Below are positions 33,590 to 40,468 of a stretch of 40,741 nt of DNA, piece after piece. The position numbers and the translations under genes were made by a program. The first letter of the stretch is position 1; every line of letters begins with the position of its first letter. Source of the stretch: Clostridiales bacterium (GTDB lineage: Bacteria > Bacillota > Clostridia > Lachnospirales > Lachnospiraceae); assembly GCA_029012085.1 (NCBI GenBank), contig JAQXLK010000072.1, positions 1-40,741 on the forward strand, written 5' to 3'. The notes under the pieces are model-generated. The model saw only the letters and a list, made by a program, of their open reading frames with translations, was not told the DNA's origin and made no database searches.

Positions 33590-33595
33590 AAGGGT

Positions 33596-33750
33596 GACGC
33601 TCCTTACTTTGGAAACTGATTTCAAAGCCGGGGCCGTTCGCACTTAGTTGTGTGCGTAGCGGTACATAGGATTGCAAAGAACGCAATCCAAGTACCGACG
33701 GACACAAATGCCCCTATTTTGAGAATCAGTTTCCAAAGCAAGGAGCTGTG
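33596..33750 (+). repeat. Structured repeat element, copy 1 (between gatC and gatA)
   Basis: The outer arms (33599-33621 and 33724-33746) are complementary over 23 bp with one mismatch. Inside is a core stem in which TTGTGTGCGTAGCGGTAC (33648-33665) pairs with GTACCGACGGACACAA (33692-33707), leaving one G-G opposition and a two-base AG bulge, and capped by a GGATTGC/GCAATCC hairpin. The second copy at 40281-40468 shares the core almost base for base, differing at two paired positions that both change in a compensatory way, but its outer arms have an unrelated sequence. Short shared ends are GACGCT on the left and AGCTGTG on the right. Whether it acts as RNA or as folded single-stranded DNA is unknown. 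Confidence 0.75.
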
Positions 33751-40253: not shown

Positions 40254-40280
40254 AGTTACCTTTCATGTGTTGGTCAGGCG

Positions 40281-40468
40281 GACGCTTCGGATTTGATAAA
40301 ATTATTTCCCGTCGGGTCCGCTTTCGCTTAGTTGCGTGCGTAGTGGTACGTAAGCAAAGTAACACTATGCCCACTAGGTTCGAAAGTACCTCGCTAAGTA
40401 CTCAATGCAAGTACCAACGGACGCAAATAAACCTTTGGGAAAACAATTTTATCAAATCCGAAGCTGTG
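40281..40468 (+). repeat. Structured repeat element, copy 2 (downstream of metY)
   Basis: Outer arms GCTTCGGATTTGATAAAATT (40284-40303) and its exact complement (40445-40464) are 20 bp and perfect, with TTTCCC/GGGAAA just inside. The core stem is TTGCGTGCGTAGTGGTAC (40332-40349) with GTACCAACGGACGCAA (40411-40426), showing the same G-G opposition and AG bulge as copy 1. Relative to copy 1, T-A becomes C-G at one pair and C-G becomes T-A at another. The apical region is longer here (61 nt) and contains an AGTAC/GTACT hairpin. The boundary sequences GACGCT and AGCTGTG are shared. The outer arms are not similar to those of copy 1. Confidence 0.75.

Follow-up and report, generated by a model that had tools for sequence, protein, structure and literature searches.

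Hairpins of the window

The window (the whole stretch of 40,741 nucleotides analysed here) carries two long hairpins, copy 1 between gatC and gatA and copy 2 near 40.3 kb, both of which had been described in an earlier note made from the letters alone. An inverted-repeat search, folding, and the core model find them as described: the outer arms are complementary over 23 nt (96%) in copy 1 and over 27 nt (93%) in copy 2; copy 1 possesses both its AG bulge and, at 33654/33701, its G-G opposition; and the two stem differences between the copies, T-A to C-G and C-G to T-A, are compensated. By the model designated R2 the window holds exactly two cores, which stand among the following features:

33594..33600, + strand: left foot of copy 1, GTGACGC versus the usual CGGACGC, recognized by eye against other copies and kept despite the different arms
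33599..33621, + strand: left outer arm of copy 1, private in sequence (inverted repeat I2, 96% complementary)
33628..33716, + strand: core of copy 1 (model R2, 98.4 bits, E 1.6e-23; copy 1 is among the 52 model members)
33636..33643, + strand: small side hairpin P2 of the three-way junction of copy 1 (columns 9-16 and 10-15 paired in 100% of the cells of alignment A3)
33658..33659, + strand: conserved A-R bulge of copy 1 (AG or AA in 52/52 aligned cores)
33724..33746, + strand: right outer arm of copy 1 (inverted repeat I2)
33745..33750, + strand: right foot of copy 1, GCTGTG, retained in many copies beyond the variable arms
40255..40267, + strand: probable decayed left terminal repeat of copy 2, GTTACCTTTCATG, cf. 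GTTACTGTTCATG, by eye against the copies L013, L015, and L022
40284..40310, + strand: left outer arm of copy 2, of the majority type of its genome (inverted repeat I1, 93% complementary)
40312..40435, + strand: core of copy 2 with 35 extra apical nt (model R2, 65.6 bits, E 5.9e-15; not a model member)
40438..40464, + strand: right outer arm of copy 2 (inverted repeat I1)
40463..40468, + strand: right foot of copy 2, GCTGTG, by comparison with other copies

As RNA, both copies fold better than all of their 200 dinucleotide shuffles (z −8.3 for copy 1, −7.5 for copy 2); as DNA, copy 1 likewise surpasses all 200 on each of the two strands (z −11.5 and −11.7). The 35 extra nt of copy 2, as read from alignment A1, constitute an enlargement of its apical hairpin, which hairpin has a stretch resembling the apical loop of copy L026. 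Intact terminal repeats are absent from both copies, and no target duplication was seen at either.

The earlier note had remarked that copy 1 interrupts the gatC-gatA pair, and had proposed a comparison with homologous loci without the element: among the loci compared, the full element stands there only in the window's genome. At 19 related loci R2 detected no core between gatC and gatA, its sole match among them being in L106 and outside that spacer; partial remnants were recognized by eye directly after the gatC stop in the genomes G003 (L112) and G009 (L099). The gatC-gatA spacer upstream of gatA in L104 and L108, from two related genomes, contains short repeats around AACCGG(C/T)GC(G/A)AG, apparently unrelated to the hairpin.

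Extent of the family and pairing of its parts

Both hairpins are members of a dispersed repeat family, as had been supposed, of which the genome of the window holds 30 places or more. A blastn search of that genome with copy 1 gave 24 matches, a count that includes copy 1 matching itself and its own reverse; the covariance model R1, made from 15 cores of the same genome, gave 39 matches, of which 30 are listed as distinct places and the rest may represent the opposite strand of the same palindromes, the count used being that of at least 30. Within the genus R1 matched in 25 of the 26 genomes, counting the window's own. The model R2 was made from the 52 cores of alignment A3, which were selected from among the hits, near-identical and most long cores being left out; at an E of 1e-6 or better it matched in 141 of 397 genomes drawn evenly from the family, representing 126 of 334 genera, under strict filters and with at most 11 candidates scored per genome, so that copy numbers from this search are minima. 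Of 398 genomes drawn across the phylum, 5 matched: the window's own, three more from its family, and one outside the family with a weak match (E 4e-7). A core-pattern scan of named genome contigs gave at least 108 stretches; among the 80 matches listed, the titles, apart from one assembly titled Bacteroidales, were those of Clostridia and for the most part of Lachnospiraceae, among them Roseburia, Kineothrix, Herbinix, Butyrivibrio, Anaerocolumna, and Acetatifactor; from such titles we gather that the family in question is the Lachnospiraceae. That scan pattern fixes core positions, and its loci are therefore excluded from all claims about conserved bases. Butyrivibrio sp. NC3005 had 83 matches and Anaerocolumna sedimenticola 27. 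Rfam at the gathering score found in the window only a tRNA and nothing for the element, and at E up to 5 gave no match to seven element loci; copy L022 had no blastn match in phage and plasmid records, nor did the core pattern match viral contigs. A literature search found no published description of the element, and a term search for clostridial names in the accessible part of PMC3733652 gave no match.

The core, 89 nt in length, forms a three-way junction of a closing stem, a side hairpin of two base pairs, and a main stem. Throughout the 52 aligned cores the unpaired bases C8 and T17 are constant, and the main stem bears an A-R bulge (AG or AA in 52/52, AA in 24/52); an AA internal loop is present in 51/52, and in 42/52 a G lies opposite an A in the main stem. 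Of the two irregularities that the earlier note had found common to both copies, the bulge is general and the G-G opposition is not, its position being G-G in 21/52, a paired A-T in 14/52, and something else in 17/52. The covariance-model search suggested in that note revealed a covariation of the core far above both the shuffled and the slid controls: in a structure-blind MAFFT alignment of the 52 cores, 27 of the 29 core pairs had changes on both sides, 91.0% of 1493 cells were paired, and the two-sided cells numbered 301, versus 84.3 after shuffling and 22-51 with the partners slid. A further measure of covariation, the number of further pair types, showed no excess (56 versus 56.6 shuffled). 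The conserved unpaired bases of the core, judged from the alignment, look like recognition points.

The tolerance for G.U pairs expected of a structured RNA was not found. The ratio of G.T to A.C was 20:19 in the cores and 31:48 in 51 arm representatives, as opposed to 238:5 in the RNase P RNA of the same genus (arms versus RNase P, Fisher p 3e-30), and G.U made up 20/1358 of the standard pairs in the cores (1.5%) versus 238/2169 in RNase P (11%); which RNA, represented by 22 of 25 genus hits after leaving out three near contig starts, is a single and more conserved control (mean identity 90% versus 65% for the element) and thus a control of kind, not of divergence. If the hairpin were a cis-acting RNA, moreover, G.T should be in excess in the copies co-directional with the flanking genes, and no such excess appeared when 128 copies were classified by flanking-gene direction (62:66 versus 23:28, p 0.74). 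Since G.T is tolerated no better than A.C, regardless of that direction, the pairing would seem to be kept at the DNA level; these comparisons of sequence suggest that the constraint acts on DNA rather than on RNA.

With respect to the outer arms, the contention that they are unrelated between copies though complementary within each holds for the family at large: the left arms of 191 copies fell into 51 similarity clusters and usually matched their own partner. The median score of a left arm was 20 against its own right arm and 7 against a stranger's (90th percentile 10), only four of the 191 copies scoring below 10 with the own partner; from which set six copies with large insertions, L322, and the copies with cut flanks had been omitted. 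Within the window's genome one arm type is common to most of the copies read, copy 2 having this usual type and copy 1 private arms; arms clearly unlike it were seen by eye only in L009, L026, and L039. Because most copies there have one arm type, arm replacement in that genome is rarer than the two copies of the window had suggested. In the 26 genomes of the genus a 15-nt motif of the copy 1 arm had no exact match apart from the two arms of copy 1 themselves; with one mismatch it occurred at 21 other loci, one of which has a core, some 600 nt away from the motif.

Some copies carry outside the arms a pair of feet, which in one subfamily are CGGACGC and GCTGTG. Both were recognized in 32 of the 191 copies, about half of those 32 being related copies of the window's own genome, and the left arm measured 29-31 nt in 26 of the 32. 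Copy 1 has kept a near form of the feet around arms unlike all others. The earlier note had allowed that the arms might be merely the insertion site; the conserved feet beyond them speak otherwise, as does the lack of a core by R2 in the spacer of the 19 related loci, and it was on account of the feet that a target origin of the arms was rejected. Pairing and length are apparently all that counts in the arms.

The variants among recent copies differed from genome to genome. In Butyrivibrio sp. NC3005, for which 15 distinct copies of 17 were aligned and a variant in two or more copies was counted as shared, the shared variants were 7 two-sided and 3 one-sided, and the private ones 3 two-sided, 12 one-sided, and 2 of other kinds. 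The 17 copies of the window's genome had 2 two-sided and 3 one-sided shared variants, along with 15 two-sided, 12 one-sided, and 1 other private variants, so that there, unlike in Butyrivibrio, the two-sided variants are mostly private (15/17). In one Anaerocolumna family all 12 variant types were one-sided; another had 40 one-sided, 11 two-sided, and 5 others (the Anaerocolumna count leaving out L320-L322, L291, L293, and L297). Selection on the multiplying copies followed by decay fits the Butyrivibrio variants best. Those of the window's genome are compatible with template switching too, which has room there because the private two-sided variants are as common as the one-sided. A structural constraint was upheld, and either of the two causes offered in the earlier note, selection on structure or template switching, may underlie the paired changes; an obligatory arm-from-arm copying at each move was not supported, and against it are the one-sided variants common in Butyrivibrio and Anaerocolumna and the survival of the bulge.

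Ends, derivatives, and surroundings of the elements

Many elements are bounded by terminal repeats, of which we distinguish series a, GTTACTGTTCA, and series b, AGGTAATTGCGAAACTC; further kinds of outer ends occur in other genomes. Direct repeats of at least 7 bp were present on both sides of 14 of the 33 series-a pairs (exactly 8 bp long in 10 of the 14), as compared with 1.7% of shuffled pairings, and of 26 of the 57 series-b pairs (10-14 bp long in 20 of the 26), as compared with 1.1%; where the 33 and 57 include many chance pairs or pairs without a core, small offsets from the repeat were allowed, and lengths were cut at 14 bp. The family accordingly exhibits the terminal inverted repeats with target duplications that characterize MITEs (miniature inverted-repeat transposable elements). 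Core-bearing elements were found in both series (L021, L022, L239, and L248 in series a; L084, L166, L169, and L253 in series b), and from the two ranges of duplication around one core we gather that different transposition systems seem to carry it. The series-a ends are, we assume, like those of IS6-type elements, and the long duplications presumably like those of IS4-type elements.

Between the same terminal repeats there are also stubs of 49-59 bp from which the hairpin is entirely gone; three such stubs have 8-bp duplications. Stubs of 49-55 bp without a hairpin lie at L327:1501-1554, L331:1501-1555, L345:1501-1555, L146:113-162, and L147:118-166; several stubs have one deletion form in common, suggesting that stubs move too. 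Hairpin elements with the same terminal repeats and another interior, devoid of a core, occur at L292:168-316 and L210:6129-6273. From the hairpin-less stubs and the core-less hairpins it follows that movement by the terminal repeats needs no hairpin, and the core looks like a module under a constraint of its own. No gene was present inside the elements read; a search by eye for an autonomous partner, by way of the terminal repeats in the fetched loci, encountered only small elements and unrelated genes, and the reading frames around six loci, likewise inspected by eye, suggested no common partner gene.

Several variants of this architecture were observed. A giant version of 574 bp (L143:160-733) has series-b terminal repeats and longer side hairpins, similar modules being recognized by eye in L031 and L144. 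Inverted pairs of cores within about 280-430 bp occur in four genomes—at L184:2999-3377, L199:3920-4285, L211:1554-1919, and L230:799-1137 in one, and at L198:144-427, L067:715-1089, and L069:1001-1427 in the others—each hairpin with its own arms and several pairs with a further palindrome between, as a composite that recalls BIMEs. One subfamily in Anaerocolumna sedimenticola has an extra conserved layer of flank with a GC-rich hairpin beside a T run, terminator-like in appearance, just before position 1501 in L354 and L360 and just after 1514 in L367, L373, and L382.

As to the genes around the element, 60 of the 86 copies of the broad family sample could be classified with mechanically called reading frames, of which 59 were between open reading frames and one inside, at median distances of 92 and 162 nt. 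The flanking genes of that sample were oriented ++ in 22 copies, -- in 20, -+ in 12, and +- in 5. In the pooled 128 copies the corresponding figures were 67, 31, 23, and 7, the 67 versus 31 indicating a direction bias in the genus sample.

Nature of the element

The earlier note was right about the pattern, and right in its doubt of a simple transposition of one fixed sequence. We favor the view that the family consists of non-autonomous mobile DNA elements that function as folded DNA hairpins, a view that we hold with confidence and doubt in about equal parts. From the outside in come terminal inverted repeats, short feet, two arms, each about 29-31 nt long, whose sequence is free although they must pair, and the conserved core. 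The hairpin would form on single-stranded DNA or as a cruciform; a putative transposon or host protein would read it at the unpaired bases; the arms would act as a rod of fixed length; and copies whose pairing had decayed would stop multiplying, with template switching in replication perhaps supplying part of the paired changes. That movement by the terminal repeats needs no hairpin counts against this reading of a mobile hairpin, as do the one-sided variants of Anaerocolumna, the private two-sided variants of the window's own genome, the lack of intact terminal repeats at both window copies, the single and more conserved RNase P control, and the one measure of covariation that showed no excess; nor did the inspection by eye reveal a transposase or a hairpin-binding protein. 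A wider proposal, which we put forward tentatively and would not yet wager upon, is that of a portable DNA-structure module, one protein-readable hairpin that would have reached more than 100 genera of one family on unrelated transposons differing in their terminal repeats and target duplications; in which proposal, equally tentative, only the unpaired bases and the rod length would be fixed and the stem would drift provided that the DNA pairing were kept.

Among the other explanations, a neutral palindromic MITE, with functionless arms paired solely by template-switch (quasipalindrome) correction and a core that is simply the slowest-changing part, strikes us as unlikely, although deserving serious consideration. 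According to the available portion of PMC8794818, template switching makes and repairs stems and generates two-sided changes without a G-U step; moreover, the arms have wholly diverged and are still paired, the private two-sided variants of the window's genome (15) are as common as the one-sided (12), and hairpin-less derivatives persist between intact repeats. Such a correction, however, would tend to erase the A-R bulge and the AA loop, which were retained in 52/52 and 51/52 cores; one-sided variants are common in Butyrivibrio and Anaerocolumna; and the core is recognizable in 126 of 334 sampled genera, whose arms are not alike. Should the element be a structured RNA instead—a non-coding RNA that is mobile, or a hairpin that acts in cis within the leaders or trailers of mRNAs—its very stable RNA fold, the location of 59 of 60 copies between open reading frames at medians of 92 and 162 nt, and the favored flanking direction (++ 67 versus -- 31 among 128 copies) would be accounted for; but we regard this idea as distinctly improbable in that G.U is tolerated no better than A.C, independently of gene direction, that Rfam had no match to the element in the window or to the seven loci, and that the direction is even in the broad family sample (++ 22, -- 20).

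That the element is REP/BIME-like and is moved by a Y1 (HUH) transposase working on single-stranded DNA in its folded form also seems improbable to us, despite the dispersed, intergenic hairpins with a conserved bulge, the inverted core pairs in four genomes, and the need of the E. coli TnpA-REP for the REP bulge, as reported in the accessible part of PMC8266576. The foot of the stem is without GTAG, and no common partner gene was suggested by the frames viewed around six loci. In addition, the terminal repeats come with target duplications of 8 bp or of 10-14 bp, and HUH transposition, to our knowledge, makes none. We can give the least credence, and very little at that, to a core that is mobile by itself and inserts into the loops of existing hairpins, the arms being target sequence; which notion would account for the unrelated arms, and the short terminal-repeat elements are themselves palindromes, but it is contradicted by the feet outside the variable arms in copy 1, L026, L039, and others, by the lack of any other exact match to the copy 1 arm motif in 26 genomes, and by the arms common to many copies of one genome.

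If the functional form is indeed a DNA hairpin, the element would point to a putative protein of gut bacteria that reads the hairpin. A strong covariation is ordinarily taken for the mark of a functional RNA; here it comes without G.U tolerance, the constraint thus being apparently on DNA pairing, and the comparison of G.T with A.C is a simple test that is applicable to other orphan RNA motifs. The hundreds of copies, furthermore, provide a way to ask how long palindromes stay paired, be it by selection or by template switching.

Among known systems, the bacterial MITEs are likewise short, non-coding, and dispersed, with terminal inverted repeats, target duplications, a palindromic fold, and deletion derivatives; the present element differs from them in that its one structured core spans different terminal repeats and lengths of duplication, its arms are highly variable yet paired, and its core has conserved unpaired bases. 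With the REP/BIME (REPIN) sequences and their RAYT/TnpA-REP, it has in common intergenic folded palindromes with a conserved bulge, sometimes in inverted pairs. The parallel that the earlier note had drawn with REP/RAYT is nevertheless as weak as that note had said: the GTAG belongs to an internal bulge in which 24 of 52 cores have AA instead of AG, target duplications accompany the terminal repeats, and in the 52 cores no GTAG was found at the foot of a 20-40 nt hairpin. The hairpin of the element measures about 155 nt versus the 20-40 nt given for REP in the accessible part of PMC3733652, and has terminal repeats and target duplications and no GTAG foot. The integron attC sites, as characterized in the part of PMC2727003 at hand, resemble the element in conserving structure while the sequence varies, and when they fold as single-stranded DNA it is the unpaired bases that serve as marks for recognition; unlike them, the element has target duplications and terminal repeats. 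Finally, the element shares two-sided changes and long stems with the hairpins maintained by template switching, to the extent that the available text of PMC8794818 describes these, and departs from them in its conserved unpaired bases and core, which seem to need selection as well.
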